Position numbers and translations under genes: made by a program. Below are positions 6,264 to 49,726 of a stretch of DNA of 64,000 bases, in pieces (position 1 is the first letter of the stretch; each line of letters opens with the position of its first letter). Source of the stretch: Gammaproteobacteria bacterium (GTDB taxonomy: Bacteria; Pseudomonadota; Gammaproteobacteria; Steroidobacterales; Woeseiaceae); the NCBI GenBank assembly GCA_029862045.1, contig JAOTYE010000002.1, positions 1-64,000 on the forward strand, in the 5' to 3' direction. The notes beneath the pieces are model-generated. The model was given only the letters and a program-made list of their open reading frames with translations. It did no database searches and was not told the DNA's origin.

Positions 6264-6321
6264 TGTTATCATCCTGCGACCGAATTGGTGTGTGGCCGAT
6301 TTTACGTTATTGTCTCCGACC

Positions 6322-9642: not shown

Positions 9643-11252
9643 AAAAAATTGCAATTGCTAAATGGAATGACCTCAAGGACCGCGCGCCGGCACATGCCCT
9701 TGTGGCTGACGTCGATCTCGTTATTGTGCGTTTCGATGACGAGGTGTCCGTCATGTACGGCCGCTGCGCGCACCGCGGCGCACTGATGTCCGATGGCCAT
9801 GTCGATGGCCATAATCTTATCTGCGGCGTGCACGGTTGGGACTATCGACTGGACACCGGCATCAGCGAATACAACCATAGCGAGACACTGCCGAAATTCA
9901 ATGCCTGGGTAGAAAGTGGCAGCGTTCTTGTCGATGAAGACGAAATCCGCGCGTGGTCCGGTTCGCATCCGCAACCGTACCAGCGCGATGCGTACCAGGG
10001 TGTGTACCAGGACCACACCGGAACGAGCGATGAGCCGTACGTAAAGTTCATACGCAAGCTGGCGAATGAGGGCTTGAGCAAAGTCGGCCACCATGGCCCG
10101 GCGGCGGCGATGGGCGTGTCGCGCAATGACCTGCCGAAATGGGACGACCTGCAGTTTGTTGTTGGTCAGTTGCACAAGCTGCCACTGCTTGATGAAGATC
10201 CGGTTGGCACCGACGCCGTGATCGGCGCGAACGCAGCCAGGCCGCTTACTCTCGACATCCCGTTGTTCGTCTCCGACATGAGTTTTGGTGCATTGTCCGA
10301 GGAAGCCAAAGTCGCGCTCTCCAAAGGCGCCGAGTTGGCCGGCACCGGCATCTGTTCGGGTGAGGGCGGCATGCTTCCAGAAGAACAGGAAGCTAACAGC
10401 CGTTATTTCTATGAGTTGGCGTCGGCACGCTTCGGATTTTCGTGGGACAAAGTCGAAAAGACGCAGGCGTTTCACTTCAAAGGCGGTCAGGGTGCCAAGA
10501 CCGGCACGGGCGGTCACCTGCCGGGCGAAAAGGTCAAAGGCAAGATCGCTGACGTACGCAACCTGCCCGTTGGATCGCCTGCGATTTCACCGGCGCGTTT
10601 TCCGGATTGGAGCGAGCTGAACCAGTACAGAGAATTTGCTGCCGAAGTCAGGGAGAAAACGCGCGGTATTCCTGTTGGTTTTAAGTTGTCGGCGCAACAC
10701 ATCGAGAAAGACATCGACGCGGCACTCGACATTGGCGTCGATTACATCATCCTCGATGGTCGCGGTGGTGGGACGGGCGCCGCGCCGCTGATCTTCCGTG
10801 ACAACATATCTGTACCGACGATTCCGGCGCTGGCGAGGGCGCGACGACATCTCGATGCGAGCCAGGCCGATGGCGTGACGCTGGTGATTACGGGCGGTTT
10901 GCGCCATCCCGCTGATTTTGCCAAAGCGATGGCGCTGGGCGCGGATGCAATTGCGGTATCGAACGCCGCGATCCAGGCTATTGGCTGCGTCGGCATGCGT
11001 GCCTGTCACACGAACAACTGCCCGGTCGGCATTGCGACGCAGCAACAACACCTGCGTGACCGCCTGCCCGTGGACATTGCAGCCGAACGGCTGGCGAGGT
11101 TCTTCAGCGCATCGGTGGAACTGATGACGGTTCTGGCCAGGGCCGCCGGGCACCGTCACCTGCAGGATTTCAATCTTGACGACCTGACGACGTTCAAGAC
11201 CGATATGGCGCGGCTGACCGGCGTCGCCTACGGTGGCGTGAACGGACCTTGA
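9639..11252 (+). CDS. Rieske-FMN glutamate-synthase-like oxidoreductase fusion
   Basis: A 537-residue cytoplasmic protein with two parts. Residues 1-110 are a Rieske [2Fe-2S] domain with Cys43-x-His45 and Cys62-x2-His65 (CAHRGA and CGVHGWDY). From about 150 it is the FMN-binding central/synthase part of glutamate synthase, with SDMSFGALSEEAK, KGGQGAKTGTGGHLPG and Cys450, Cys456, Cys461 in the exact C-x5-C-x4-C spacing of the 3Fe-4S cluster of GltB. The glutaminase domain is missing, so it is not a normal glutamate synthase; related stand-alone FMN domains work in methylamine and other amine pathways. The Rieske domain may replace a ferredoxin as electron donor. The start overlaps the upstream permease stop. 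Confidence 0.9.
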   Translation: MKKIAIAKWNDLKDRAPAHALVADVDLVIVRFDDEVSVMYGRCAHRGALMSDGHVDGHNLICGVHGWDYRLDTGISEYNHSETLPKFNAWVESGSVLVDEDEIRAWSGSHPQPYQRDAYQGVYQDHTGTSDEPYVKFIRKLANEGLSKVGHHGPAAAMGVSRNDLPKWDDLQFVVGQLHKLPLLDEDPVGTDAVIGANAARPLTLDIPLFVSDMSFGALSEEAKVALSKGAELAGTGICSGEGGMLPEEQEANSRYFYELASARFGFSWDKVEKTQAFHFKGGQGAKTGTGGHLPGEKVKGKIADVRNLPVGSPAISPARFPDWSELNQYREFAAEVREKTRGIPVGFKLSAQHIEKDIDAALDIGVDYIILDGRGGGTGAAPLIFRDNISVPTIPALARARRHLDASQADGVTLVITGGLRHPADFAKAMALGADAIAVSNAAIQAIGCVGMRACHTNNCPVGIATQQQHLRDRLPVDIAAERLARFFSASVELMTVLARAAGHRHLQDFNLDDLTTFKTDMARLTGVAYGGVNGP

Positions 11253-11272
11253 TACGTCACGAGGACTGACGA

Positions 11273-12733
11273 TTGCGCCGGACTACTTTTTTAGCGGGCT
11301 TTTTGTTCTTGCTGCCAGCCTTAGCGCTGTGGGCCGAGACACACGACGACTTCCACCACTTGGGCCAGATCAATAAAGCCTCGATCGTCATGCTGGCGGA
11401 GGAGGGCCTTGTGCCCGCCGACCTTGCAGCGTCAATCGCCAAAGGCATCGCGACGGTTATCGATGAGCAAGGTCACGCAGGCAGCGCACGCTCAAGCAAC
11501 TATCTCGATTTCGAAGCACGACTCCTGGAGCTATCAGGACCGCAAGCATCGCGATTGCACACAGGAAGGAGCAGGCAGGATGTTGGCTCGACGTATCGGC
11601 GCATGGCGTTGCGTGAGGCGTTGCTCGATAGCTATGACGCGCTGCTTGCTGCCCGGTTAGCGCTGCTCGACCTGGCCGCACGACATGTCGACACGATCAT
11701 TCCGGCCTACACTCACGGCGTGCAGGCGCAGCCGACAACGTTGGCGCACTACCTGCTCGCGTTCTCTGCAGCTTTCGAGCGCGATGCCGAGCGTTTGCAG
11801 CAGGCCTACACGCGTTTGAATCGCAGTCCGCTCGGCGCTGCGGCACTCGGTACCTCGGGTTTTCCGATCAATCGCGAGCGTCTCGCCGAATTGCTCGGCT
11901 TCGACGGACTCGTCGAGAACTCCTACGACGCGAATCTCGTATCTTCGGTCGATTCGAAGATCGAATTCGCGAATGTGCTGGCCACATCGGCGATCACGAT
12001 AGGCCAGTTAATGCAAAACCTGCACACGCAGTACCACGATCCCGTGCCCTGGATCTTGCTCGAGGAAGAGCAGACGGATGTCAGCAGCATCATGCCGCAA
12101 AAGCGCAACCCGCGACCGCTGGACCAGGTGCGGCTCCTGGCAACGGGCGTAGTTGGCAGTGCGCATACGGTCACGCTCAATGCACACAACACCAACTCCG
12201 GTATGAACGATTATCGGCCCGGTACACAAGCGCTGCATACCGCGGCACAGGCGCAGGCCATGTATAAGGCTTATGTATCTGTGATGACGCACCTGATCAT
12301 CGACAAGCAGCGCGCGCTCGACGAGGTGGATATTGATTATTCGACGATGACCGAAGTCGCGGATGTATTACTGCATGAAGCCGGCGTGCCGTTCCGTATC
12401 GGCCACCATTACGCGTCGGAGCTCACGAGCTACGGGCGCGCTGAAGGCAAGCGGCCGAAAGATCTGCACGACGAAGAGTTGGTCCGAATCTATGAGGAAT
12501 CGACTGGGCAGGACCTGCCGCTGGACGTCGGCGTGATCAGGCAGGCGATGGATCCGGCCGCAATGGTCGAGGGACGCAGCGGCCTCGGCGGCCCGCAAGC
12601 TGAAGAAGTGTTGCGCATGCTGGCCGGTCATAATCTGTCGCTCGAAGCAGGTTTTGAATGGCTTAACGCGTCTCACGAGCGCCTCGTCGACTCGGCGGCA
12701 GGGTTGGAGCGTAACTTCCTGCAATTAAAGTAA
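11273..12733 (+). CDS. Exported argininosuccinate-lyase-like protein
   Basis: A 486-residue member of the fumarase/aspartase superfamily closest to ArgH. HTGRSRQDV, TSGFPINRERLAELLGFDG, SSIMPQKRNP (the catalytic serine loop) and DYSTMTEVADVLLHEAGVPF are all recognisable ArgH features. ArgH cleaves argininosuccinate to arginine and fumarate in the cytoplasm. This one begins with RRTTFLAGFLFLLPALALWA, a convincing signal peptide, from a TTG start with GAGG 9 bases upstream. It lies 20 bases after the Rieske/GltB-like gene and is probably in the same operon. A periplasmic C-N lyase acting on an amino-acid conjugate is the simplest reading, with the substrate unknown. Confidence 0.85.
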   Translation: MRRTTFLAGFLFLLPALALWAETHDDFHHLGQINKASIVMLAEEGLVPADLAASIAKGIATVIDEQGHAGSARSSNYLDFEARLLELSGPQASRLHTGRSRQDVGSTYRRMALREALLDSYDALLAARLALLDLAARHVDTIIPAYTHGVQAQPTTLAHYLLAFSAAFERDAERLQQAYTRLNRSPLGAAALGTSGFPINRERLAELLGFDGLVENSYDANLVSSVDSKIEFANVLATSAITIGQLMQNLHTQYHDPVPWILLEEEQTDVSSIMPQKRNPRPLDQVRLLATGVVGSAHTVTLNAHNTNSGMNDYRPGTQALHTAAQAQAMYKAYVSVMTHLIIDKQRALDEVDIDYSTMTEVADVLLHEAGVPFRIGHHYASELTSYGRAEGKRPKDLHDEELVRIYEESTGQDLPLDVGVIRQAMDPAAMVEGRSGLGGPQAEEVLRMLAGHNLSLEAGFEWLNASHERLVDSAAGLERNFLQLK

Positions 12734-12852
12734 AATTCTGGATTGCGGCGGCCATACGCCTGTGGCAGAGTTGGGTTGTTACTGAGTTCGAAGTTAAAGT
12801 CATGAAGCCATCAGTATGAATGGCGTGACGAGCTCATTGAGGGGAGAAAACA

Positions 12853-15800
12853 ATGTTCACTGACGCACTGTTGCCGCGCGGTTTGCGGCGCGCAAGTTCA
12901 CTTCTTGTCGGCGTAATCCTGTTGCCCTTTGCTGCCAGCAATGCACTTGCGCAGGAAGTCGATGAAGCGGTCGATGAAATCACTGTCACGGGCACGCAGA
13001 TCAAGGGCGCCAAGATTTCCGATGCGCTCGCCGTTTCGGTCATGGACGCCGCCCAAATCGAGGCGCTGGGCATCAGTTCCGGCGACGAGTTGTTCGACTA
13101 CATGCCCGAGATGGGGCAGAACCTCTTTAACGAAGCGGAAAACATATCCGGTGGCGTGAACTCGGCGCGCGGCGACATCGGCGCCTTCAACCTGCGTAAC
13201 ATGGGTACCGGCAATACGCTGGTGCTGCTGAACGGCCGCCGCATGGTGCAGGCCGCGGGCTATCAGACTGAGGAGGTCGGCGGCAGCTTCGTGCCGGTCA
13301 ACTCGGTGAACTCCAATGCCATGCCAGTGTTCGGCATGGAACGGGTTGAGGTGCTGCGCGATGGCGCCTCGGCGATCTACGGCGCTGACGCCGTAGCCGG
13401 AGTCATCAATAGCGTACTCAAGAAGGACCTGGAGGGGCTGACCGTGAGAGCGCGCCTGGATGAATATGACCACGTTTCCCGTGGCGACCAGCGCGTCAAC
13501 GTGGAATGGGGAAAGTTTTTCAACGGGGGCCGGACCAATGTCGGCGTGTTCTTCGATTTCTACAAGCGCGACCGGGTCAATTCTCAGGACGAAGCCAAGT
13601 GGGGGCAGGCAGACTGGGCGCTTCAACACCTGATCGGAACCCCATGGGAGGGCGACACGGGCTTCGTCAACGACAGCGCGAATTCACTGTATGGCCAATT
13701 CGATTTCCGCAGCAGCGTTAGTGGCGATTCCCATGGCGTCTTGACCGACAGCGCGGGTGAATTCGAGACCTACCCGATCGACAGCACGGAATGCGATGCG
13801 GCCGACGCCTGGGTCATCAACGAGGTGATGTGTGCCGCCCCTGACCCTGGCACGCGGCCCGACGGCCGGTACAACCTGAACAACAACCGCGACCTTGTGT
13901 CCGAACTGGAACGCTACAACCTGTTCCTGTACATCAACCACGAGATGGCGAGCGGCGTCGAGGCCTTCACCGAACTGTCCTGGTACGAGGCCGACTCCAA
14001 CCTGTTGCGGCACTCGTCGCTGGCCAGCTCGGGCCAGGCCGATCTGCAGCTGGGCCCGGCCAATTACTACAACCCGTTCGGGCCTCTCGGGTCACCAAGT
14101 CGCCTGCGTGATGAAAATGGGGACGAACTTCCATTTTATGCAGACGTGGCCGACGAAGGTGAGCGCCTCGAGATCGACAATTACCGCTGGGCCGAAGTCC
14201 CACGCATTATCGACGTGGACAATAACACCTGGCGTTTCCTGCAGGGCTTTCGCGGCACCATGGGCGACTGGGACTGGGAGACCGCTTTGACCTGGTCTGA
14301 GGCCGAACGCAACGATGTGACGCATAACCGGGTTTCCAACAGCCTGATGCAGGCAGCCCTGGACGACCCGACTCCGGCTGCCTACAACCCGTTCAGCGCG
14401 GGCATCGATTCGAACCTGGAACAGGCGCTGATAGACGTCTACCGCAAGAACGAGACCGATCTCAAGATGATCGACTTCAAGCTGACCAATGCCGAGCTGT
14501 TCGAGATGCCAGCTGGTCCTGTGGGTTTCCTGGCCGGCGTCGAGTACCGCGAGGAATCCTTCGTGGACGACCGGGATCCACGCCTTGACGGCACCATCGT
14601 GTTCACGGCCTTCGAAGGCCCCACTTATCCAATCGTCGGAGACGTGGCCAATTCCAGTCCCACAGCGGACAGCCGCGGCGGGCGTGACGTCACCTCGCTG
14701 TTCACGGAATTTGCCATTCCGCTGCATGAAACCCTGGATATACAGTTGGCCGCACGTTACGAGGACCTCTCGGACGTGGGTGACACCACGGTCGGCAAGT
14801 TTGCCTTCGGCTGGCGGCCAATAGACCAGCTGCTGTTCCGCGGTTCCTGGTCCGAGGCGTTCCGGGCCCCCAACCTGATCACCGTCAACGAGGAACTTGT
14901 GGTGCGCCAGAATAACCGCGACGACCACGTCTGCCTGTACGTCGAGGACTTTACCGGAGAAAATCTGGACTGCAACTCGAGCGTGCAGCGCCGGGCCCAG
15001 GGCAGCAAGGACCTGGTGTCCGAGGAATCCACCAATACCTCGATCGGCGTCGTTTGGGACGCCACGGACAACCTGACCTTCACGCTGGATTTCTGGGAGA
15101 TCGAAAAGGACGACACGATCGGGCTGTTCGGCGAGGAAAACCACACTATCCTGGACCTTTTGTACCGCCTCCAGGCCGGCACCGCGAATTGCGCCGGCGA
15201 GGTCTTCAACGAGGTCGTATTGCGCGAGGACCCCGATGCAGGCGATGCTCAGTTCTTCCTCGACGCCGGCGTGTGCCCGGCAGGTGAGGTCTTTGCCGTC
15301 GAAGACGTCTATGCCAACCTGGACACTCGCACCATCGGGGGCTATGACCTGGGCATTTACTACGCGAAGGACACCCGATTCGGCCAGTTCGACTTCCGGT
15401 ATGTCGGCTCCTTCTACGACAAGTACGAGCAGAAAGCGGGCGGCAACGCTGCCGTCTTGATCGAGGCGGTGGAGAGCGGCGAGCTTCCGGCCAACACTGC
15501 GGTCCAGGGGTTCGCGGACCTGCTGGGGGTTGACGGCAACGCGGACGAAAAACATAACGCCAGCCTGCGTTGGTCGAAGGACGCCTGGGGCGCGGGTGTA
15601 ACCATGAACAGGCTGGGTAGTTTCTATGACTCCTCAAATACCCTGTCCGACGGAACCCGGTACATCCTGGGATCCATGACGACATACAACGCCTATTTCG
15701 ACTACGATTTCGACCTGATCGATGCCGATTCCCGGATTCGCCTCGGCATCAACAACTTCACCGACGAGCGCGCGCCGTTGGCTGACAAGTCGTTCAATTA

Positions 15801-40378: not shown

Positions 40379-40410
40379 CAGCCTGCCCGAGTAAGATTGT
40401 GGGCAGGCTG
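40379..40410 (+). terminator. Strong hairpin after the TPR lipoprotein gene, possible terminator
   Basis: CAGCCTGCCC and GGGCAGGCTG form a perfect 10-bp stem around a 12-base loop, 16 bases after the stop. No T run follows, so it may act as an RNA 3'-end stabiliser and not as a classical terminator. Confidence 0.5.
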
Positions 40411-40474
40411 CCCTATCAACCAACCACGGACGCTTGCTCTGCGCCATCAGCATCCCGTCGTCCGCGGTGAAGCC

Positions 40475-41095
40475 ATGAGTTTCTACGAAAATAGAGTTCT
40501 TCCGCATCTGATCAATTTTGCGTGCTCGGCGAAACCCAACCGGAAGCAACGTGAAAAAATCGTACCTCTTGCTGAGGGAGATGTCCTCGAAATTGGCTTC
40601 GGCAGCGGACTAAATCTGCCGTTCTACGATACGCCAAAAGTCCGTAAGATCTGGGGCCTCGAGCCATCGGAGGGAATGCGGAGCAAGGCCCAACCCATGG
40701 TCGATGCGTCAGTTCTGGACGTCGAGTTCATCGATTTGCCCGGAGAGAGCATTCCTCTCGAAGCCAACAGTGTGGATACGGTACTCGTGACCTACACCCT
40801 TTGCACGATAGAAGATGCAGGCGCTGCGCTGGCAGGAATGCGGCGGGTACTGAAACCTGGTGGGAGTCTGCTTTTTTGCGAGCACGGTATTGCGCCCGAC
40901 GAGAATGTGCGTCGCTGGCAGCATCGGCTGAATCCAGCCTGGAGCCGGGTCGCCGGCGGCTGCAACATGAATCGCGACATTCCGGAGCTGATCACGAAAA
41001 GCGGTTTCGAAATAACGGCCGACGAAAGGATGTACATTCCCGGCATCAAGATGCTGTGCTACAACTACTGGGGTAGGGCTAAGGCGGTGCAGTAG
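40475..41095 (+). CDS. Class I SAM-dependent methyltransferase
   Basis: A 206-residue cytoplasmic methyltransferase. The SAM-binding motif I is DVLEIGFGSGLNLPFY near residue 36, the acidic motif II follows in IWGLEPSEGM, and the post-I region is VDTVLVTYTLCTIED. The layout with LKPGGSLLFCEHG and CNMNRDI belongs to the UbiE/phosphatidylethanolamine methyltransferase-like group (Methyltransf_11). The acceptor cannot be told from sequence. ATG 40475 was chosen since the longer frame overlaps the hairpin region. No clear operon partners. Confidence 0.9.
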   Translation: MSFYENRVLPHLINFACSAKPNRKQREKIVPLAEGDVLEIGFGSGLNLPFYDTPKVRKIWGLEPSEGMRSKAQPMVDASVLDVEFIDLPGESIPLEANSVDTVLVTYTLCTIEDAGAALAGMRRVLKPGGSLLFCEHGIAPDENVRRWQHRLNPAWSRVAGGCNMNRDIPELITKSGFEITADERMYIPGIKMLCYNYWGRAKAVQ

Positions 41096-41197
41096 CTACT
41101 ATTGGCGGTCAGCGGACATCATATTGGCTATTGTTTATAGCGCCTACTATGCTGAAGGTGTGCTTCCCTAACAACAAGACTTCATGAGGAGTTACAC

Positions 41198-41527
41198 ATG
41201 GCCCATTATCTGATCGCGCAGGTCAAAGTTAACGACGATAGTTGGATTCCTGACTACGCCGCGAATGTACACGATATTGTGCATCGCCACGGCGGCAAGT
41301 ACCTTTCGCGCAGCGGCAATATCACGACGCTTGAAGGTAACGAATCTACCGCGAATCTCGTCGCAGTCATTGAGTTTCCAACAGGGGATGCGCTGCATGC
41401 GTTCGTCTCGGACCCGGATTACGCACCGTATGCGGCAGCGCGACAGGCGGGTACCGATAGTCACTTTATTGCGATAGACGCAACGGATGCGGCGGGCACG
41501 ATCCCTTACCTGACAGCGGGCGGTTAG
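41198..41527 (+). CDS. DUF1330-family protein
   Basis: A 109-residue small cytoplasmic protein with the DUF1330 dimeric alpha-beta barrel: MAHYLIAQVKVNDDSWIPDY at the start, YLSRSGNITTLEG in the middle and VVIEFP-like AVIEFPTGDALHAFVSDPDY near residue 66. The family function is unknown. ATGAGGAGTT precedes the ATG. The next gene starts with TTG directly after its stop. Confidence 0.88.
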   Translation: MAHYLIAQVKVNDDSWIPDYAANVHDIVHRHGGKYLSRSGNITTLEGNESTANLVAVIEFPTGDALHAFVSDPDYAPYAAARQAGTDSHFIAIDATDAAGTIPYLTAGG

Positions 41528-41980
41528 TTGAGACTGCTGCTGTTCGCGGCTTTTACGATGTTGCTCGGCGCGCCGTTCGGCTCGGCCGTTGCCGAGGACG
41601 ACGCAGCAAGTGCTACTACGGATAGCGGAACATTGATCGTACATGTGGACGGTCTTGAGTCGAGCGATGGCAGCTTGCGATTCGTCATGTTCGATTCGCA
41701 AGAGAACTTTCTGAAGAATGCCGTTCGCGCAGAGGTTATCGAGATCGAAGACCGGCAGGGTACGTGGACTATTGAAGATCTGCCTTATGGCGTGTATGCG
41801 GTGCTTGTGCATCACGACGTTGATGGCAGCGGCGTTATGGAGCGGCACTGGTATGGCAAACCGAAAGAGCCGACGGGTACTTCTAATGACGCACCAGCCA
41901 GGTTTGGTCCGCCAAAGTTCAAGAAGGCGAAGTTCGTATTCGAGGCACCTACTCAAACGATGACGATTGTCGTCAAATAA
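41528..41980 (+). CDS. DUF2141-family exported protein
   Basis: A 150-residue protein with a TTG start at 41528 directly behind the previous stop, and a signal peptide (LLLFAAFTMLLGAPFGSAVA). The mature part is a prealbumin-like/SbsA-type beta sandwich with the DUF2141 pattern: LIVHVDGLESSDGSLRFVMF, LPYGVYAVLVHHDVDGSG and FGPPKFKKAKFVF. The family is found next to outer-membrane and carotenoid-related genes, and function is unproven. Confidence 0.88.
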   Translation: MRLLLFAAFTMLLGAPFGSAVAEDDAASATTDSGTLIVHVDGLESSDGSLRFVMFDSQENFLKNAVRAEVIEIEDRQGTWTIEDLPYGVYAVLVHHDVDGSGVMERHWYGKPKEPTGTSNDAPARFGPPKFKKAKFVFEAPTQTMTIVVK

Positions 41981-42025
41981 TATCGCTCTCCCACTGCGGT
42001 GTAGCTGGCTTTATACTATGGCGCC

Positions 42026-43636
42026 ATGAAAGCCAGCACGCTGCGCATCGGCCATCGTTACCGCCCAAATCGCCTCGCACCGGAGTATGGCGCCATTGTC
42101 ATCGGCTCGGGCATGGGTGGCCTGACGAGTGCGGCGTTACTAAGTGAACTTGGTTGGAAAGTGTGTGTGCTCGAGCAGCACTATACGGCGGGTGGCTACA
42201 CGCATTCCTATGAACGGAATGGCTATGAGTGGGACCCGGGTGTGCATTACATTGGCGATGTCGGCGCCGAGACCCGTACCAAAAAGATGTTCGACTTTCT
42301 CTCGGATGGCAAGCTCGAGTGGGCACCGATGGCCCCGGAATACGATCGTTTTTACGTTGGTGACAAGGTCTTCAACGCCATCGCGGGCAAACAAGAGTTT
42401 CGCGACAATCTGGTCAAGAGCTTCCCGAAAGAAAAAGAAGCTGTAGATCGTTACCTAGATCTCCTTGCCAAGGTCAGTAAGGCAACGTCTGCCTTTGGCT
42501 TTTTGCGAGTCCTGAAGCCCTGGCAACGGTTTTTCGCGAAACCGTTCATCCGCTTGCAACTGCCAAAGGTCTTGTATCGCAGTACCTACGACGTCTTGAG
42601 TGAATTGACCGACGATCAGGACCTGATCGCAACCTTGTGCGGCCAGTGGGGCGATATGGGTCTGCCGCCGAAGCGTTCGGCGTTCATGGCGCACGCGATG
42701 ATCGCGCGGCACTATCTGTACGGCGGTTTCTATCCTGTCGGCGGCAGTTGGCGTATCGCCGCGAGCATCATTCCGAAAATTCAAAAGGCCGGCGGCGAGG
42801 TCTTTACCTATGCCCGCGTGAAAGAAATTCTGGTGGCTGACGGTAAAGTCATGGGCGTCGAGATGACGGACGGCCATCGTAACGAGTGTGCGTGCGTTAT
42901 TTCCTGTGCCGGCGTCCACAACACTTTCGGCAGCCTGGTGCCGGACGATGTGGTCACTGCGGCAGGCTACAAGCAGCTGTTGCCGCGGGTACAGCCGAGC
43001 TTCGCCCACCTTGGCGTGTACATTGGGCTCAAGCAAACGGCCGCAGCCCTCGATATTCCAAAGACGAACTTCTGGATCTATCCGCACAACGATTACGACG
43101 CGGCGGTTGAACAGTTTGCGAATGAAAAGGATGCGCCGTTTCCGGTCGTCTACATCTCGTTTCCATCAGCCAAAGATCCCGACTACCTCAATCGTCATCC
43201 AGGCACCGCAACGATCGAAATCGTCGCGCCCGCACCTTACGAATGGTTTGAGAAGTGGGAGGGCAGCACCTGGGGCAAGCGCGGTGCCGACTACGAGGCG
43301 TTCAAGGGCGAACTCGGTGAGCGCCTGATGCAGTACTTGTACGACAAACTGCCGCAGCTCAACGGCAAGGTGGACTACTACGAAGTCTCGACACCGCAAT
43401 CGACCAATTGGTTCTCCGGTTACCAGCGCGGGGAACTCTATGGCCTTGACCACACCGCGGAACGCTTGCAACAGGATTGGCTTTGCCCGCGCACACGCAT
43501 CCCAGGACTTTGGCTCACTGGTCAGGACACACTCACCTGCGGCGTCACGGGCGCGATGATGGCGGGCATGTCGACGACGATGGCACTGGTGGGGATGCGG
43601 AAGATGAGGCCGTTGATGAAAAAGGTCTACGGGTAG
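42026..43636 (+). CDS. Phytoene-desaturase/retinol-saturase-like FAD oxidoreductase
   Basis: A 536-residue FAD enzyme. The dinucleotide-binding motif [19 protein letters not shown] lies near residue 22, followed by [34 protein letters not shown], here cited for its GG and His-Tyr contacts (residues about 46-80). The C-terminal FAD signature is [21 protein letters not shown] near 498. This form, with a long middle insertion, is closest to all-trans-retinol 13,14-reductases and CrtI/CrtO-type carotenoid enzymes. There is no other carotenoid gene in the window, so the substrate is open. It overlaps the end of the convergent sulfotransferase gene by 10 bases. Confidence 0.9.
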
Positions 43637-44523
43637 TAGCGGCGGCCATAGGAGCCCGCCAACGAGCGGGCGACTGCGTGAATCCACCGATTCTCAGGAT
43701 TCTTCCAGCCCTCGGCGATGGCAATCGTTACGTCGCTTTTCTTCTCCGCCAGCACGCGTTCGTTCGCCGGCGGGTACAGATGCTGGTGACTCCAGTCAAT
43801 GAATGCGCGATCGGGCTGCACAAACATCTCCGCAGGAATCGCTAAATCGGCCCACTGCGCAATCTTCTCAATCGCTTCCTCCGGAGCAACGGCCAGATCT
43901 TCGTATCGCAGAGTGAGAAACTGCTTTTCGAGCGCCGGCTTCCAGTCCTCCAGCCGACGCTGGCGCACCAGCCAGTCGCGGGCGTTCTTGCACGTCTTGG
44001 CAAAGCTCTTTTTTCTTTTGTGCCAGCTGCAGGCAACCGCGCGCGGGTCGCGAACCAGGTTTAGAAGATACAGATCCACCTTTGGCAACAACCTGAAGGC
44101 CAATGACACTTCCGGCACCTTGGACGTGTCGACAAAGGTCGAGGCCCCAGTGACTTCGGCAATTCTACTCAGCACATTCTGCAGCGCATGCAAAAAGTCT
44201 TGATGACGTTGCCGCAAACCCTCTTGAACTCCGTCGTCGGCCCAGACCTGCTCGCTCACAGCATCCTTCAGGAAGGCCTTCGCGAGTTTCTGCATTTGAG
44301 CAATCTGGGGGCTTCGGGCAGTGGCGTGGCTGTCTGGGACAACGCGACCGTAAACAGCGCAGGCTTGAAGATTTTCGCCACAGCTGCAGGCGGCATTGTC
44401 TTCGTATGCCCGCCAAAGATGGCGTAGCTGCCCGAGATTGAACACCCTGGTGTCTTGCGACAACAATAACGACAGTAACGTGCTTCCTGAGCGACCGGAC
44501 CCACTGATTGCGACGACCTTCAT
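43627..44523 (-). CDS. PAPS-dependent sulfotransferase
   Basis: A 298-residue sulfotransferase. The 5'-phosphosulfate loop [19 protein letters not shown] starts at residue 3, and the 3'-phosphate region [22 protein letters not shown] lies near 152, with the typical RDPR. ATG 44523 is used; a TTG directly upstream is an alternative. There is no signal peptide, so it acts in the cytoplasm and would sulfate a lipid, glycan precursor or small molecule. Four clustered Cys near residue 47 ([10 protein letters not shown]) are unusual. It is divergent from a truncated sulfotransferase and the A-T-SGNH gene. Confidence 0.9.
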
Positions 44524-44612
44524 CAACTCAGAATGCTCGTATTTACCACTAGTTTGGCGCTCAATTATCCATATACTGCATAGGGTCGCAAAATGAGCTG
44601 ATCAATTCCTTC

Positions 44613-44981
44613 ATGCAACCCGCCAATGACGTCAAGCCTCCTGCGCCGATCTTCCTGATCTGCTCTGAACGCTCGGGCTCGAACCTTATCAGCTCCATCG
44701 TGGGGGAGCACCCTGAGGATTATGCGCATCCGCCATACCACCTCGGCGGCGACCTGACGGACCGCTTTGGTTATCCGCGGGAATACACCGGCCTGGCCAG
44801 GCCGGGCTTCTTCAGCTCGCTGCGGCCGCAACTTACCGAGCCGCTGGAACGTTTCATCAACAGCGATATGCACCCGCAGTACAACTTTGGCAACCGTCGC
44901 TTGAAGAAACAGCTGGAGGCCCATGTGGCGCCGCTGTGTCCGCCGTTATGGGAAGGCATGGGCAAGAGCAGCTCTGACTAA
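44613..44981 (+). pseudogene. Truncated sulfotransferase N-terminus
   Basis: This 122-residue frame starts with a clear PAPS loop, FLICSERSGSNLISSIVGEHP near residue 15, followed by family-like sequence to about residue 110. It then stops, with no 3'-phosphate-binding (RDPR-type) region and less than half the usual length of about 300. Immediately downstream (4 bases) the A-T-SGNH gene begins. It may be a decayed gene whose rest was lost when the large gene was placed here, or a short domain protein. Alternative: a real short coupling protein, less likely. Confidence 0.65.
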
Positions 44982-44984
44982 GGT

Positions 44985-47762
44985 ATGACGGACTCTTCTT
45001 CATATCGGGCGGGCAGACGAATCCTGGAGATTGCGCAACGTAGCCCGGACAAGGTCGCGCTGATCATCGACGGTGAGTCGTGGACGTATGGCGAGCTGGT
45101 CGCCGCCGCACAACAGATCGCGAGTCACTTTCCGGAAACTACTCAGGGCGAACATCAGCCGATCACAGCCGTCATGGCGCAGCGGCATATTTCCGCCTAC
45201 GCGGGCATTCTGGCAGCGCGGTTTTCCGGTCATGCCTATGTGCCGCTGAACGTGAATCACCCGTGCAAACGCAATGCGACCATTCTGAGGAACTCCGGTG
45301 CGCAACGGGTTATCTGCGGCGACCTCGCCGTGACCAAATTACAGATGATTCTCAGCGCCGCAGACTTATCTGCGGAAACATTGCCCATCATCGAATGCGG
45401 TGACGACAAAGCCGACTATCAATTAGACGGCGCAGCCGATTTCACTTCAGGAGCGGCGGACAGAGAGCAGTCAGTTGCCGATCTCGCCTACATTCTCTTT
45501 ACCTCCGGCAGTACTGGCGATCCGAAGGGTGTACCGATCCGCAACAGCGAGCTCGAAAGCTATCTGAAAGCTGTCGGACCGCTGGTCAACGTGGAGCCTG
45601 ACGACCGGTTTTCGCAGACCTTTGATCTGACGTTCGACCTCTCGGTACACGATCTCTTTGTGTGTTGGGAAAACGGCGCCACGCTGGTTGTTGCGTCAGA
45701 AAAAGAATTGCGCATGCCGTCGGGTTACATTCGTGAACAGCGCATAACGTGCTGGTTTGCAGTGCCTTCGCTGGCCTATCAGATTCGGCTGCAGGAAGAC
45801 CTGACGCCCGGGGCGTTTCCGAGCTTGCGTCTAAGCCTGTTTTGCGGCGAGGCGCTGCCTACGCTTGTCGGCACAGAGTGGGCGCTGGCGGCACCGAATT
45901 CTCGGGTCGAAAACTGGTACGGGCCAACTGAAGCGACCATCGCCTGTTCGCGCTATGTGGTATCCGGCGCGACGATCGAAGACGACACCGTCCCGATCGG
46001 CACCGCTTTTTCTGGTATGGAAATCCTGGTTCTGGATCAGGATCTCTCGCCGTGCCCCGAAAACGTTGCGGGTGAGTTGTTTCTCTCGGGCGCTCAGTTG
46101 GCTTCAGGCTATTTGAACGACCCGGAAAAGACGCGGGCGAGTTTTCTCACCCTGCCGGGCGACGACAAGCAGGTGTATAGAACCGGCGATCGCGCGGTTC
46201 TTGGCGTCGATGGCAATGTACGATTTCTCGGCCGGGTCGACAATCAGGTCAAAGTTCGAGGCTACCGAATCGAGTTGGGCGAGATCGAAGCCGCGCTTCG
46301 GTCTGCCGCATCAGGAAAGAACTCGGTAGCGTTGGCATGGCCGGGCGGGTCGGAAATCGCGACCTCAATCGTCGCTGCACTCGAGACGGATACGGCCGAC
46401 ATCACGGCCATACAAAAAGAAGTCAGCGCCGTTCTTCCTGACTACATGGTTCCGTCAACGATCTTTTGCGTTGCCGAGTTTCCGAAAAATGCCAGCGGCA
46501 AAGTGGACCGCAAGGCATTGAGTGAAGAACTGATTCACCAAGCCAGGGACGACAGTGAGCTCGATGCGCCAGACATGTCCAAAGAGGCAAGATTCCTGCT
46601 AACGGCGATTCTGGCTCATGCGCCGCTGCTCAGCCGGCAGAATATTCTGACCGCCAAAAACCTGTTTGATGCCGGCATGGATTCTCTGGCATTCATCAGT
46701 GTCACGACGGAAATTGAACACCATTTCGGCATGTCGCTGGACCAGGACACGGTCATTCAGCTGTCTGAAATGTCGTTTGACGAAATCGTCAAGGAGGCGC
46801 GGGGAGAGACGCAGCGTCTCGTCGCAGCGCAGAGCGATGAGGGCAAGCTCTCCGCGTTCGATCGGCTACGCAAGCTCCTGGGCATACCACTCATCATCAA
46901 GAAACATCGCGCTAACCGGGCGCTGCAGTTCATCGAGCGCTTCCCCGGCTACCTGGCCGAACACGGCGCGCCCGATGTGTTGGCGGTCGGTTCATCCGGC
47001 ATGTTTCGTGCTTTCTGCCCCACGGAGTTTGAACCGGCTGCGGCAGAGTACGGTGCGGAGATCACGACACTCAACGCCGGGTTTCCGGCCGTGAACGCAT
47101 CCGGCATGCGCATGATGTGTGAGTTCATCAAGGATCAGTGCAACGCTGCCAACGCTCGCATCCCGTTGATTATTTACGAATTCGATCCGATGCACCTGAG
47201 CACGACGCCACCAAGTGGGGATATCAATCTCGGGCCGGATTATTTCTCAGGCAATGTGATATCGCTTCGTGGCAGCGGGACCAGTCCGGAGTTTCAGTGG
47301 CTTGTTGAGACTTCAGGTGCCTGGAATGCTCCTGACGAGGCGCGCCAAAAAGACCGCAAGCCGAATTGGGTGCGCGATCGCGACCGGGTGATCGCGGGCG
47401 TTTACCTGGGTGAGATTGAGTTTGATCAACAAGCCGTAGACAACTGGTTCGACGCCGCGAGCGCGCTGCAGGCAGTATCGGACCAAATGGTCTGCTTTAT
47501 TCATCCGGCTGACCGAACGATGACGGATGAGCTCAAAGGGACCTGCGGGAGCGACCGGCTCTCTTTGTTTTGCAACGACATCAGTAACAAACTCGGCATT
47601 CCGACGCTCGCGTGGGAGTCATTCGATCTGGAGCCTGCTGATTTCCTCGATATTAATCATATGAACGCGCGGGGTGGCCGGGAAAAACTCAGCCGTCAGC
47701 TTGCCGCGATGATTTTTTCTGATGATCCATCAACGTTGGCAAGACAAGAACGCGCTAGATGA
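44985..47762 (+). CDS. Adenylation-carrier-SGNH three-domain protein (DltA-DltC-DltD-like fusion)
   Basis: A 925-residue single-module protein. The adenylation domain (1-520) has LFTSGSTGDPKGVP, ENWYGPTEAT, YRTGDRA and NASGKVDRKAL. A carrier domain (545-620) has the phosphopantetheine Ser567 in FDAGMDSLAFIS. The last 300 residues look like a DltD-type SGNH domain, with VGSSGMFRAF (Ser670/671), LNAGFPAVNASG and a C-terminal Asp889-x-x-His892 in DINHMN. There is no condensation domain, thioesterase or signal peptide. An activated amino or hydroxy acid is probably loaded on the carrier and passed on by the SGNH domain, as in D-alanylation, but here in one cytoplasmic chain. It overlaps the next gene by ATGA. 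Confidence 0.9.
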   Translation: MTDSSSYRAGRRILEIAQRSPDKVALIIDGESWTYGELVAAAQQIASHFPETTQGEHQPITAVMAQRHISAYAGILAARFSGHAYVPLNVNHPCKRNATILRNSGAQRVICGDLAVTKLQMILSAADLSAETLPIIECGDDKADYQLDGAADFTSGAADREQSVADLAYILFTSGSTGDPKGVPIRNSELESYLKAVGPLVNVEPDDRFSQTFDLTFDLSVHDLFVCWENGATLVVASEKELRMPSGYIREQRITCWFAVPSLAYQIRLQEDLTPGAFPSLRLSLFCGEALPTLVGTEWALAAPNSRVENWYGPTEATIACSRYVVSGATIEDDTVPIGTAFSGMEILVLDQDLSPCPENVAGELFLSGAQLASGYLNDPEKTRASFLTLPGDDKQVYRTGDRAVLGVDGNVRFLGRVDNQVKVRGYRIELGEIEAALRSAASGKNSVALAWPGGSEIATSIVAALETDTADITAIQKEVSAVLPDYMVPSTIFCVAEFPKNASGKVDRKALSEELIHQARDDSELDAPDMSKEARFLLTAILAHAPLLSRQNILTAKNLFDAGMDSLAFISVTTEIEHHFGMSLDQDTVIQLSEMSFDEIVKEARGETQRLVAAQSDEGKLSAFDRLRKLLGIPLIIKKHRANRALQFIERFPGYLAEHGAPDVLAVGSSGMFRAFCPTEFEPAAAEYGAEITTLNAGFPAVNASGMRMMCEFIKDQCNAANARIPLIIYEFDPMHLSTTPPSGDINLGPDYFSGNVISLRGSGTSPEFQWLVETSGAWNAPDEARQKDRKPNWVRDRDRVIAGVYLGEIEFDQQAVDNWFDAASALQAVSDQMVCFIHPADRTMTDELKGTCGSDRLSLFCNDISNKLGIPTLAWESFDLEPADFLDINHMNARGGREKLSRQLAAMIFSDDPSTLARQERAR

Positions 47763-48148
47763 CTTCGTCAATTGGTTTCAAAATAATCAGCACACTTCTG
47801 GTCTTGGCTGCAAGCTACGAGATGCGTCTGCTGCAAGCAGGATTCGCGGTCGGTGACCAACCTGTTCCTGTTTTGCTCGAGGCCGTGTTGATCATCCACG
47901 CGATCCTGGGCGGAGTGACGGCATACGGCATGTGGCGGGCAAGTGCCTGGGGCCATGCGGCGCTGCGTACCTGGATGGCGGTTTGTCTTGGGAGCATCGC
48001 CGCCGTCGCCTTTGTCGCGCCGCGAGACGACGGGGCAGGCGGAATGCCGTACTACGCATACTTATTCGCGCTACTGTTGACGCTGTTTGTATTTGTGGAT
48101 TACTTCGTGAGAAAGCGGTACTTCAAGTCCGAACCGGATGGTGACTAA
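47759..48148 (+). CDS. Small membrane protein coupled to the A-T-SGNH gene
   Basis: A 129-residue protein with about four membrane helices (FKIISTLLVLAASYEMRLL, VLLEAVLIIHAILGGVTAYG, WMAVCLGSIAAVAFV, YLFALLLTLFVFVDYFV) and a basic end (VRKRYFKSE). No family is recognised. It overlaps the large upstream gene by ATGA, so it may anchor that enzyme to the membrane or handle its product. Confidence 0.82.
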   Translation: MTSSIGFKIISTLLVLAASYEMRLLQAGFAVGDQPVPVLLEAVLIIHAILGGVTAYGMWRASAWGHAALRTWMAVCLGSIAAVAFVAPRDDGAGGMPYYAYLFALLLTLFVFVDYFVRKRYFKSEPDGD

Positions 48149-48165
48149 CGGTCGTAGCGGTCGAT

Positions 48166-48777
48166 CTAGCATTCTTCACACCATTCAGTGTCGTCGAAGT
48201 TGCCGTCCTCATCCGGATCTTCAATCCACGTGCTGCCCTCATAGTCGTCGAATTCAAGGTCATCCCAGTCGTACTCGTCGGAACCGTCGAAATCGTCATA
48301 TTCATCGTCCTCACCGTCGTCGCCATCACTACCTTCGCTACTACCATCCGAGGAGTTGTCGCCGGCGCCGCTTTGCGCACCGTCATCCGAGGGCCCTACT
48401 GGAAGCGATGTCCGAAAGACGCTGCGAAACGCCGTGTACAAGTCTCCATTTGGCAACGCCAGAATGATCTGCACCATGTTTGTCGGCCAGAACGGCACTC
48501 GGAATCCCTCAAAGCCAAACCCCAGGAGCACGAAATCGGCGTCGACATAGACCGTTTGGTTGTTCAGGTTGGTGATAAAGAAGTCATCAGCCTGCTCGAA
48601 GCTCATCCATGCGTCAGGCCCATAGAACTGATTGAAAGCGAAGTTCGCGAAGTCAATGGGATACTCATGAGGATCGCGGCACGCCTCACAGACAACATTG
48701 ATGGCATTCGCCTGTGCGAGGACAACTTCTGCGGCCAGTGGTGAAAACAGCAGTACAAATAGCAGCAATTTATGCAT
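48166..48777 (-). CDS. Exported protein with Asp/Glu-rich C-terminal tail
   Basis: This is a 203-residue protein with a signal peptide ending VVLAQA. The N-terminal 130 residues are aromatic and neutral (FANFAFNQFYGPDAWMSFEQADDFFITN). The C-terminal 70 residues are very acidic, with many Asp, Glu, Ser and Gly, and include DPDEDGNFDDTEW, which resembles a calcium-binding EF-hand/thrombospondin-type loop. It ends in CEEC. I recognise no family; a calcium-dependent secreted role is a guess. It overlaps the end of the upstream gene by 8 bases, so both are in one operon. Confidence 0.8.
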   Translation of the reverse strand: MHKLLLFVLLFSPLAAEVVLAQANAINVVCEACRDPHEYPIDFANFAFNQFYGPDAWMSFEQADDFFITNLNNQTVYVDADFVLLGFGFEGFRVPFWPTNMVQIILALPNGDLYTAFRSVFRTSLPVGPSDDGAQSGAGDNSSDGSSEGSDGDDGEDDEYDDFDGSDEYDWDDLEFDDYEGSTWIEDPDEDGNFDDTEWCEEC

Positions 48778-49531
48778 CGTTCAGTTCTCCGATAGTGACC
48801 TCGCCATAGACGGTCCGTTGTATGTCGCGCATGGACTGAAATAACTCTTCAACACGCGCGTCTAACGAGTCCAACTGGCGGGCATCGACCCCGACCTTCA
48901 TCAGCTCGTTTCGCAGATAAGTAGATTTGTGAGATGGCTCGCCCAAACGTGTTACGAGTGCCGCCAATTCATACTGGCGTTTCATGTTTGCAACTTGTGG
49001 CGCACCGTTAATTGCAGTCACGCCAAATGCCTGGTCGGATAGCCACGCGATGTGCTCGAGGTCGCCACCGTCAAGCGCGGACGCGCGTATGAGCAATTGG
49101 TATGACATTCTCGTATCCGTGCGGACCAGCCTTTGACCGAGCAATGCGGCGGCTGTCGCGTCTGCGTACGCCATGGCGGCGAGCGTGTCGTCGTCATAAT
49201 GGGCATACGGGTGTGGCGGACCGGGGTTGTGGGGCGTGCAGGAGTGCGCGGAGAACATTTCGCCGTCCGGCGTCACATAGTCCTTGAGTTCGACAGTGCA
49301 GTTCCTGTCCTTACGCACCCGAATGCCGAACACGATCTCAGTGTCGTCGTCGGCAACAACATCTTGCCGCGGCTCGTACCACCTTGCCGCTGTTGGCGAC
49401 TCGAGATCCGGGGCATGGCCCGCCTGGATGCGGCCGTCGGATAAGTCGCTGGGCGCGTCGGCGAACTGGGGGTAGATCAAATACGCGGCCAGCACGCTAA
49501 GCAGGGTTGCTATGGTAATTATCTTGGTCAA
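48770..49531 (-). CDS. Exported or membrane-anchored protein of unknown function
   Basis: This is a 253-residue protein with a TTG start at 49531, preceded by GGAAGGGACG, and a hydrophobic N-terminus (IITIATLLSVLAAYLIYP) that could be a signal anchor. The longer frame to 49609 gives an odd Cys-rich start. The mature part has FGIRVRKDRNCTVELKDYVTPDGEMFSAHSC, a pair of Cys that could form a disulfide, and a helical TPR-like region (AYADATAAALLGQRLVRTD). No family is recognised. First gene of a two-gene leftward operon. Confidence 0.8.
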   Translation of the reverse strand: MTKIITIATLLSVLAAYLIYPQFADAPSDLSDGRIQAGHAPDLESPTAARWYEPRQDVVADDDTEIVFGIRVRKDRNCTVELKDYVTPDGEMFSAHSCTPHNPGPPHPYAHYDDDTLAAMAYADATAAALLGQRLVRTDTRMSYQLLIRASALDGGDLEHIAWLSDQAFGVTAINGAPQVANMKRQYELAALVTRLGEPSHKSTYLRNELMKVGVDARQLDSLDARVEELFQSMRDIQRTVYGEVTIGELNDA

Positions 49532-49726
49532 CGTCCCTTCCCTGGTAGTTGAGTAGAGGCAACAATGTAGCTGCACAACGTTGATACTGCGCGCTGCAAA
49601 AATCCGCAAAACAGGTAATTAGGAATCGCTGTAATCCGCGAGACTCGACAACTCGGGCGCCAGACGGAGGGCCAGGCCCGGCGCAGCACTACGCCGGGCG
49701 GATATTCGACAAAAGCAAAGCCGGAC

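Follow-up and report, generated by a model that had tools for sequence, protein, structure and literature searches.

What might a single protein do that joins an adenylation (A) domain, a carrier (PCP) domain and an SGNH domain, and that is encoded beside sulfotransferase genes? We identified such a fusion in a 64,000-nucleotide stretch (the window) of contig JAOTYE010000002.1 from a gammaproteobacterium of the Woeseiaceae (GCA_029862045.1). A preliminary description had compared the domain order with DltA, DltC and DltD and had proposed an undescribed route for acylation and sulfation of an envelope molecule or a lipid, with a coupled membrane gene supplying the missing membrane step. The observation itself is confirmed and the interpretation is partly supported. 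Features of the locus are listed in Table 1.

Table 1. Positions of the fusion gene, its domains and its neighbours in the window
Feature	Positions	Strand	Basis
ST2, predicted 299-aa PAPS-type sulfotransferase (Sulfotransfer_3)	43627..44526	-	Pfam, model, co-occurrence
Divergent intergenic stretch, 86 bp, between ST2 and ST1/fusion genes	44527..44612	.	Coordinates
Apparent ST1 remnant, 122-aa ORF	44613..44981	+	HMM pieces; alignment with intact ST1 of loci L048 and L023
Fusion protein A-PCP-SGNH, 925 aa	44985..47762	+	ORF and Pfam; full or nearly full-length relatives
A domain, residues 16-514	45030..46526	+	Pfam, alignment, pocket mapping
PCP domain, about residues 535-610	46587..46814	+	PP-binding 27.9 bits; limits estimated
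Predicted phosphopantetheine site S567 of PCP	codon 46683-46685	+	Conservation of G564, D566, S567
SGNH domain, modelled as residues 625-925	46857..47759	+	Structure model, fold search, conservation
129-aa membrane protein	47759..48148	+	4-nt overlap with fusion end; no conserved system member

Architecture and distribution of the fusion protein

The N-terminal part of the fusion is a strong AMP-binding match in Pfam (residues 16-377, E 1.6e-64, 218.6 bits), followed by an AMP-binding_C match under the cut-off (residues 462-506, 19.8 against 24.5 bits) and a PP-binding match above it (residues 555-592, 27.9 against 20.8 bits). The NCBIfam model TIGR01733 (AA-adenyl-dom) scored 347.2 against a cut-off of 317.4. 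AMP-binding, PP-binding and AA-adenyl-dom are all over cut-off, as in NRPS-type amino-acid A-PCP proteins. Within the PCP domain, G564, D566 and S567 are invariant in 36 of 36 full-length chains, and the genome encodes two PPTase-family genes. A hydropathy scan of the 925-aa protein found no hydrophobic segment over threshold, in agreement with the earlier statement that a signal peptide is absent. The fusion is a single chain, as had been proposed, and soluble.

The C-terminal part matched no Pfam family, and a PDB sequence search with it returned chance-level matches only. The preliminary description had staked its case on residues 640-925 folding as an SGNH domain, and the model of residues 625-925 does so with high confidence (pLDDT 92.7, pTM 0.91). 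Nucleophile S671 (block I), H892 (block V) and acid D889 are the predicted catalytic residues, so that fold, block I Ser and block V His all place this part in the SGNH superfamily. The acid of block V precedes the His by three residues and varies: of the 35 sequences reaching the site, 20 have D, 14 have N and one has T, and a plain Ser-His-Asp triad is therefore missing in about 40%. DltD is among the best Foldseek matches (6o93, E 5.5e-4; 7dxm, E 6.9e-4), but its Z scores (11.2-11.4 over 229-238 residues) are tied with those of many other SGNH proteins, including esterases and thioesterases (TesA, Z 11.8). The DltD alignment is longer, but with a higher rmsd and to a larger protein. Likeness to DltD, as claimed earlier, is thus real but not exclusive, and the fold alone does not tell a transferase from a thioesterase.

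The same chain, full or nearly full-length, occurs at 35 other loci, 34 of them distinct (L052 and L035, at opposite ends of one contig, are copies of identical length). The full-length alignment and the pocket and triad counts exclude L054, which is cut by a contig end, and the frameshifted L056; rows L030, L052 and L055 were left out of alignment A1, and L052 out of the tree. Among 149 related genomes, the fusion is present in the window's own genome and seven others and absent from 141. Named carriers include Antarctobacter heliothermus DSM 11445, Rhodovulum steppense DSM 21153 and Maliponia aquimaris CECT 8898. The 3' end of one further fusion lies in another stretch (G067), outside the 38 counted loci. 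A viral origin was considered and set aside, as no relative turned up when viral contigs were scanned once with the window protein, a query suited to close relatives only. In the literature searched, which was available in part, we found no description of the fusion or of a fusion/sulfotransferase pair, consistent with an undescribed route. The SGNH-like PppH of PMC11796379 is a separate protein, unlike the fused domain here.

The adenylation pocket and its probable substrate

The pocket residues of the A domain are D218, L219, H222, F258, L285, C287, W311, I319, A320 and K506. This pocket (DLHFLCWIAK) is identical in 28 of the 36 full-length chains, and its D, H, W and K are invariant in all of them. 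The pocket of AlmE (DLHLFCLIA) agrees with it at six of nine aligned positions, including D218, L219, H222 and C287 of the fusion, which match AlmE 4oxi. The pocket of Bacillus cereus DltA (DLMTLCTVA) agrees at five of nine; it has the AlmE-like D, L and C but no His. The lead of AlmE in the pocket itself is therefore one position. Two of the matched residues, L219 and C287, correspond by alignment offset to AlmE L248 and C316, which help to keep out substrates larger than glycine, as checked by mutagenesis (PMC11253843).

Over the pocket segment, AlmE scored 82.8 bits and the DltA entries 3e7w and 3dhv scored 51.9 and 50.9 bits. Slightly above AlmE are 8k4r (86.3 bits) and IdnL7 (84.4 bits), yet these lack its L, H and C; IdnL7 uses Gly, Ala and Ser (PMC11253843). 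In whole-protein comparison, linear gramicidin synthetase A has the top score. The DltA equivalog model TIGR01734 gave 285.4 bits, far under its cut-off of 559.85. The preliminary description had left the substrate to a specificity prediction. Our comparison points, mainly through the His and the surrounding-segment score, to a pocket nearer that of AlmE (glycine) than that of DltA. We infer that the fusion probably takes up glycine, or else a different amino acid of very small size. On the equivalog score, pocket and segment scores, D-alanine, the DltA substrate, is less likely than glycine.

Sulfotransferases and other neighbours

The divergent gene ST2 encodes an intact protein that scored 53.7 bits against Sulfotransfer_3 (PF13469, cut-off 27). 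A PDB sequence search with ST2 found no match. Its model (pLDDT 92.2) gave Z 16.1 to the olefin-synthase sulfotransferase (ST) domain 4gox and about 15 to tyrosylprotein sulfotransferases. The consensus of 28 sequences holds SGSGRSGST and RDPRAVAxSW, which we take to be the 5' and 3' phosphate motifs of PAPS sulfotransferases. Judged by score, modelled fold and these motifs, ST2 is very probably an enzyme of this type.

An ST2 orthologue lies within 1.5 kb of the fusion at 34 of the 38 loci (window included), divergent at many of them as it is here, and at none of five loci with related A domains that lack SGNH (two with little flank). One locus (L042) has only distant sulfotransferase pieces, and the capsule-type locus L056, in which the fusion is frameshifted, has no sulfotransferase nearby. 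A search of the related genomes at E of 1e-20 or lower found ST2 in the window's genome and six of the seven other carriers but in none of the 141 non-carriers, a count that is not independent of the first because six of the seven carriers share contigs with those loci. ST2 and the fusion also co-vary (Mantel r 0.92, 27 sequences, L054 left out; 0 of 5000 permutations as high), and the yardstick, A against SGNH domains of one chain, is 0.875. We conclude that sulfotransferases are not incidental at fusion loci and that ST2 is a conserved partner.

The second sulfotransferase had been described as broken. Against Sulfotransfer_3, the 122-aa ORF scored below threshold (17.3 bits). It aligns in one frame to two pieces of the ST1 model, positions 26-71 and 303-372, with positions about 72-302 of 375 (about 230 residues) missing. 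By this alignment, the ORF is a conserved gene, ST1, with an in-frame internal deletion. The deletion might mark a decaying, non-functional remnant, as might the apparent lack of APS kinase and CysN: in this assembly, APS kinase gave only a weak match of 48 positions, FtsY-type GTPase-like by eye (an assembly gap is possible), and CysN/CysC no match better than general GTPases. These absences also count against sulfation from PAPS here, although APS kinase was found in 19 of 19 other genomes searched. We nevertheless consider decay improbable. Neither the fusion nor ST2 is truncated, and both have the residues invariant in their families, although fusion positions 259 and 296, near-invariant elsewhere, deviate; three other loci (L019, L020, L021) lack an intact ST1 yet keep both genes; and the genome has eight further Sulfotransfer_3 matches over 120 bits elsewhere.

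The relatives of ST1 allow another role for the locus. Among solved structures, ST1 is nearest to the ST domains of olefin synthase (6.7e-11) and CurM (1.3e-9), which work on carrier-bound substrates. ST1 is fused N-terminally to the A-PCP-SGNH chain in six loci, and ST2-ST1 form one ORF in three. Thus, the locus might be a small natural-product module. In it, A-PCP would load a small amino acid, the sulfotransferases would modify the intermediate on the carrier or after its release, and SGNH, as a thioesterase of the TesA kind, would free a soluble metabolite bearing sulfate, by CurM-like logic. The L053 locus, whose stand-alone A domain has an almost identical pocket (DLHFLCLIA), is in line with such a role: beside that domain are a luciferase-like monooxygenase, a carbamoyltransferase and a GNAT protein that scored under threshold. 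Glycine, however, lacks a hydroxyl that could be sulfated, which means that the CurM reaction is not transferable to the loaded residue. No neighbour family other than the sulfotransferases recurs widely, and one lineage has capsule-export-like genes instead. We regard this module as rather unlikely, though a serious candidate.

Capsule-export-like and galactofuranose genes surround the fusion in four Rhodobacteraceae loci (L035, L039, L041, L056), making an envelope glycan the leading candidate for the acceptor. Neighbours at most other loci scanned (a sample of genes) include no glycan or export genes, so this assignment rests mainly on one lineage. Any shared acceptor of glycine and sulfate is perhaps an envelope glycan. 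Of the earlier proposal of acylation and sulfation of an envelope molecule, the sulfation part is consistent with ST2 co-occurrence, and the envelope part with the genes of this lineage.

The membrane gene that overlaps the end of the fusion had been described as four-helix; three strong hydropathy segments were found by scan and a weaker N-terminal one by eye. Nothing at the 37 other fusion loci matches it convincingly (L030 and L054 have no visible downstream sequence), and it has no match in the seven other related genomes carrying the fusion. Two weak matches occur among the 148 other related genomes, neither in a carrier. Among the loci seen, the gene is peculiar to this genome and outside the system, and we rejected it as the general missing DltB step. 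Thus, recurrence with the fusion, expected for both kinds of neighbour, held for the sulfotransferases and not for the membrane gene; the sulfation half of the preliminary description is stronger for it and the membrane half is unsupported.

Absence of DltB, also noted earlier, agrees with a Pfam scan of ten window proteins (40397-49609), which found no MBOAT. The acceptor step could instead fall to an unlinked MBOAT or other acyltransferase of a Dlt/Alm-type envelope system, with SGNH and the sulfotransferases as accessories. At L016, an MBOAT gene is directly followed by the gene of a stand-alone SGNH relative, among the nearest found, and a Saprospiraceae locus (L057) has one gene each for A, PCP and MBOAT. 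Here, carrier and SGNH are parts of one chain that lacks a membrane anchor, and the membrane gene of the window is not conserved. This arrangement seems to us quite improbable.

A possible cytosolic route and its relation to known systems

The reading that we tentatively favour, while stopping a little short of believing it, is a cytosolic glycyltransferase that dispenses with the Dlt membrane step and shares one acceptor with PAPS sulfotransferases. The A domain would adenylate glycine, or whichever very small amino acid it accepts, and load the PCP arm. The SGNH domain would then move the glycyl group from the thioester to Ser671 and on, as an ester, to an acceptor hydroxyl, transferring rather than hydrolysing it. 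Because this transfer would occur in the cytosol, no MBOAT protein or membrane shuttle would be needed. ST2, and ST1 where kept, would use PAPS to sulfate that acceptor, or a precursor of it, giving a product in which a negatively charged sulfate accompanies a positively charged glycyl amine. The likeliest acceptor would be an envelope glycan or glycolipid, assembled in the cytosol and then exported.

Taken as a whole, the boldest form of this proposal is speculative and rather doubtful: a membrane-free cytosolic relative of Dlt and Alm, in which one chain both activates glycine and links it by an ester bond to a hydroxyl group on an envelope glycan or glycolipid, and PAPS sulfotransferases complete a sulfate/glycyl-amine zwitterion. 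If true, it would be the sulfate counterpart of D-alanylated teichoic acid. We know of no earlier aminoacylation system coupled to sulfation. The conserved gene pair would join two modifications that are usually studied apart, and it suggests how an SGNH transferase could receive an amino acid from a carrier with no need for the MBOAT/Tyr shuttle on which Dlt and Pat systems rely. Because the pocket hardly varies and some carriers are named strains, substrate, acceptor and product are directly testable.

AlmEFG, which glycylates lipid A in Vibrio cholerae (PMC12930378, PMC11253843), has a carrier and the pocket residues D, L, H and C seen in the fusion, and moves an amino acid to a non-protein acceptor, as the fusion may do. 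The fusion differs in having the carrier in its chain rather than as a separate AlmF, SGNH rather than the LPLAT-type transferase AlmG, and dedicated sulfotransferases beside it. The roles of AlmE and AlmF are swapped in PMC3783018; our usage follows the two papers cited above.

DltABCD(X), which D-alanylates teichoic acid, shares with the fusion the order of A, carrier and SGNH protein, the SGNH fold of DltD and the five pocket positions of DltA. It differs in that the fusion is one chain, with no DltB-type MBOAT among the scanned proteins, no outward-facing N-terminal membrane anchor as in DltD, a DltA equivalog score under cut-off, and sulfotransferases at its loci. PatA/PatB, an MBOAT-SGNH pair for envelope acylation, shares the SGNH domain, of which a near stand-alone relative follows an MBOAT gene at L016. 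The donor proposed here is a cytosolic thioester on the fused carrier, whereas MBOAT-SGNH systems shuttle the acyl group across the membrane as acyl-Tyr (PMC12148441).

The ST domains of CurM and olefin synthase are closest to ST1 by sequence and, with tyrosylprotein sulfotransferases, to ST2 by structure. Those domains are part of a polyketide synthase and sulfate a carrier-bound hydroxyacyl chain, whereas here the partners of the sulfotransferases are an amino-acid A-PCP and an SGNH domain.

The adenylation-carrier-SGNH protein and its predicted substrate

The 925-residue protein encoded in the window matches the preliminary description of a single chain joining adenylation, carrier and SGNH domains. 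We identified an amino-acid adenylation (A) domain in its N-terminal part (PF00501, E 1.6e-64; TIGR01733 over the curated cut-off) and a carrier domain (PCP) with the phosphopantetheine serine S567. The C-terminal 300 residues gave no Pfam match and only chance-level sequence matches in the PDB, and no hydrophobic segment over threshold was found in the chain. The fusion is single-copy in the window's own genome, where the five further matches in a genome search are A-domain regions that are about 25% identical.

Coordinates of features in the window and at other loci (L0xx, from genome surveys)
Locus	Feature	Position (strand)	Length	Remarks
Window	ST2, Sulfotransfer_3 protein	43627-44526 (-)	299 aa	Divergent; 86 bp from ST1 remnant ORF
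Window	ST1 remnant ORF	44613-44981 (+)	122 aa	Ends 3 nt before fusion start
Window	A-PCP-SGNH fusion	44985-47762 (+)	925 aa
Window	Membrane ORF	47759-48148 (+)	129 aa	4-nt overlap with fusion end
Window	Acidic protein	48166-48777 (-)	203 aa	By eye, start resembles a signal peptide and C-terminal half is very acidic, rich in Asp, Glu and Ser; without Pfam match
L016	Stand-alone SGNH gene	1345-2562
L031 (Verrucomicrobiales MAG)	Sulfatase and glycoside hydrolase family 2, joined	3161-6952	1263 aa	Next gene after fusion
L033 (Comamonadaceae)	Stf0-family sulfotransferase	14142-14975		Near ST2-ST1 double ORF
L051	Homologue of the L033 Stf0 protein (by clustering)	10617-11450
L057 (Saprospiraceae)	Dlt-like gene set	10001-14856

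The ten pocket positions, read off motifs in GrsA numbering, are DLHFLCWIAK in 28 of 36 chains, with the D, H, W and K invariant in all 36. For the whole fusion, the PDB entry that matches best is linear gramicidin synthetase A. For the pocket segment, scores were 86.3 bits for 8k4r, 84.4 for IdnL7 (6akd), 82.8 for AlmE (4oxi), the glycine adenylation enzyme of AlmEFG, and 51.9 and 50.9 for DltA. The pocket L, H and C are absent from 8k4r and IdnL7 in this alignment. Of the nine positions that could be aligned, six are shared with AlmE (DLHLFCLIA) and five with Bacillus cereus DltA (DLMTLCTVA). AlmE is the only one of the five PDB rows shown to carry the motif SVHD, which reads SVMD in both DltA rows. 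According to a review, mutagenesis indicates that leucine and cysteine at the matching positions of AlmE help to exclude larger and D-amino acids (PMC11253843). Judged from the pocket, glycine is our best guess for the substrate, followed by D-alanine and other small amino acids.

The SGNH fold proposed for the C-terminal domain is borne out by a high-confidence model (pLDDT 92.7, pTM 0.91; 33 aligned sequences as input). Foldseek gave five PDB matches with an E of 0.001 or less. DltD accounts for two of them (6o93, 7dxm), and PAF acetylhydrolase (1.1e-3) and PatB (2.9e-3) come after the five. VIA-align gave Z scores of 11.0 to 13.0 against SGNH proteins. DltD (Z 11.2 to 11.4) is tied with others, and aligns over 229-238 residues versus 166-195 for the other listed chains, with an rmsd of 4.6-5.0, DltD being the larger protein. 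Residues G669, S670, S671, E732, W772, W795 and R799 are invariant in all 36 full-length chains and H840 is kept in 35; H892 is present in all 35 chains long enough (L030 is cut before it). At the D889 position, 20 of 35 chains have D, 14 have N and one has T, which is evidence against a uniform classical triad. From the model, it is plausible that the domain is DltD-like rather than esterase-like. Relatives of the SGNH domain occur in related genomes as stand-alone proteins (L016, L017, L018), which are about 405-450 residues long and, by eye, hydrophobic at the N-terminus. In L016, the one neighbourhood of these that was read, the gene lies directly 3' of an MBOAT gene, probably as a Dlt/Alg-like acyltransferase pair.

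Distribution of the fusion

The fusion is rare. A species-genome scan with patterns from the window protein, which may miss more distant members, identified 42 loci: 36 with the fusion, one (L054) with an A domain running up to the contig end and counted with them, and five whose related A domains come without an SGNH match, including two in long frames (2061 and 1383 aa). Among the 36, L056 is frameshifted, L030 and L024 are cut at one end, and L052 is a copy of L035. By their labels, carriers are Woeseiaceae (whose MAGs hold the nearest relatives of the window fusion, making this family the very probable origin of the window) and other Gammaproteobacteria, Rhodobacterales, Burkholderiales, and a MAG each of Rhodospirillales, Caulobacteraceae and Verrucomicrobiales. 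The fusion was found in seven other genomes among 149 related genomes searched (the window's own included), in one other genome of 274 in the class, and in 4/295 genomes of the family of one alphaproteobacterial carrier; a phylum survey of 398 genomes yielded one other clear fusion and a weak match in a 416-aa frame.

In a tree of 35 full-length chains the window clade is joined to a clade with two Rhodovulum species (support 100/99), which makes horizontal transfer likely. L035 and L052, with identical gene layout, lie near both ends of one 110-kb contig; this duplication probably reflects overlapping contig ends of a circular replicon. The patchy distribution of the system would be consistent with an extrachromosomal element.

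Sulfotransferase partners and the membrane gene

The sulfotransferases belong with the fusion, as had been proposed. Using HMMs built from some of the loci, we identified ST2 within 1.5 kb of the fusion in 34 of 38 loci, window included (33/37 without the L052 copy); in L040 a contig edge leaves just the end of ST2 in view. Of the remaining loci, L024 and L031 are cut short by the end of a contig, L042 has distant pieces only and L056 has none nearby; the L024 genome encodes ST2 on another contig. None of the five control loci (A domain without SGNH) has ST2, L059 and L060 showing little flank. The window's own genome (3.53 Mb) has 11 Sulfotransfer_3 matches, so chance adjacency would be about 2%, by arithmetic from this genome only. 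In the set of 149 related genomes, ST2 at E 1e-20 or better is present in the window's genome, six of the seven other carriers and 0/141 others; in the seventh carrier a 4.9-kb contig begins within the fusion. The two surveys overlap, six of these seven carriers being the same contigs as species-scan loci. Pairwise distances of ST2 and fusion co-vary (r 0.92, 27 sequences, 0/5000 permutations as high), compared with r 0.875 between the A domain and the SGNH domain within one chain.

ST1 is present, whole or as the window's remnant, in 24/38 loci. In six (L034, L036, L037, L038, L040, L043) it makes up the N-terminal part of a single chain with A-PCP-SGNH, and in three (L028, L033, L051) ST1 and ST2 share an ORF. 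A third, different sulfotransferase (Sulfotransfer_2) adjoins six loci (Pfam-checked in two). The ST2 model adopts the fold of a PAPS sulfotransferase. Its closest matches, at Z 14.8 to 16.1, are the ST domains of the olefin synthase and CurM together with tyrosylprotein sulfotransferases, after which the scores fall to 11.5.

A CxC-x6-C motif at ST2 residues 47-56 is invariant in all 28 aligned sequences and is a possible metal site; we know of no such site in sulfotransferases.

The window's 122-aa ORF, previously described as a broken sulfotransferase, is indeed incomplete (about 230 residues missing), but both termini of ST1 are still there (positions 26-71 and 303-372 of the 375-position model), in frame with each other. 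ST1 is intact in L022, L023 and L048, an N-terminal stub in L019 and not seen in L020 and L021; all of the last three keep ST2. L019 clusters in the tree with L022 and L048, and L020 clusters with L023. Given these ST1-bearing relatives, ST1 was lost or eroded more than once. The core of the system is ST2 plus the fusion.

The membrane gene, which had been suggested to supply the missing membrane step, drops out as part of the system. At other fusion loci nothing matched it better than E 0.25 (L030 and L054 lack downstream sequence), and in 148 other genomes it has just two weak relatives, neither of them in a fusion carrier.

Possible acceptor and comparison with Dlt

Apart from the sulfotransferases there is no widely recurring neighbour family, the next cluster being a generic ABC ATPase (7/43 regions). 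The system occurs among glycan genes in four distinct Rhodobacteraceae loci (L035, L039, L041, L056). Neighbours in L035 are UDP-galactopyranose mutase, a galactofuranosyltransferase-like protein and three export proteins that score below NCBIfam cut-offs (KpsE-family protein, KpsM-like permease, polysaccharide-type export ATPase). By sequence clustering, all five recur in L056, four in L039 and two (mutase, permease) in L041. In two Comamonadaceae loci an ABC exporter lies upstream, with a family 41 glycosyltransferase and an Stf0 sulfotransferase downstream (scanned in L033). Glycans exported by ABC transporters are completed in the cytosol, which is in keeping with soluble enzymes. We infer an envelope glycan as acceptor, a reading kept tentative because the other scanned neighbours of fusion loci are mostly unrelated.

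The sulfotransferases may sulfate the same acceptor or its precursor. A point of caution for this step is that neither APS kinase nor CysN/CysC was found in the window's own assembly (the one weak APS kinase match lies in a gene FtsY-like by eye), although APS kinase was identified in 19/19 other genomes searched. Overall, the preliminary observation holds more widely than stated, and its interpretation is supported in part, for the fold and the sulfotransferases and not for the membrane gene. The system would be a form of carrier-dependent aminoacylation with a dedicated sulfation partner, and we found no description of such a partner in the literature searched.

L057 encodes a separate A domain, a carrier just below the Pfam cut-off, an MBOAT and a sub-threshold DUF1574 protein, a gene set like that of Dlt in a Gram-negative, with a pocket different from that of the fusion.

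In Dlt itself, thioester-bound D-alanine passes from DltC via DltB to a DltX tyrosine and then to a DltD serine (PMC12148441). Here, in contrast, carrier and SGNH domain are in one chain without a membrane anchor, so the simplest path would be for the aminoacyl group to pass directly from the carrier thioester to the SGNH serine.
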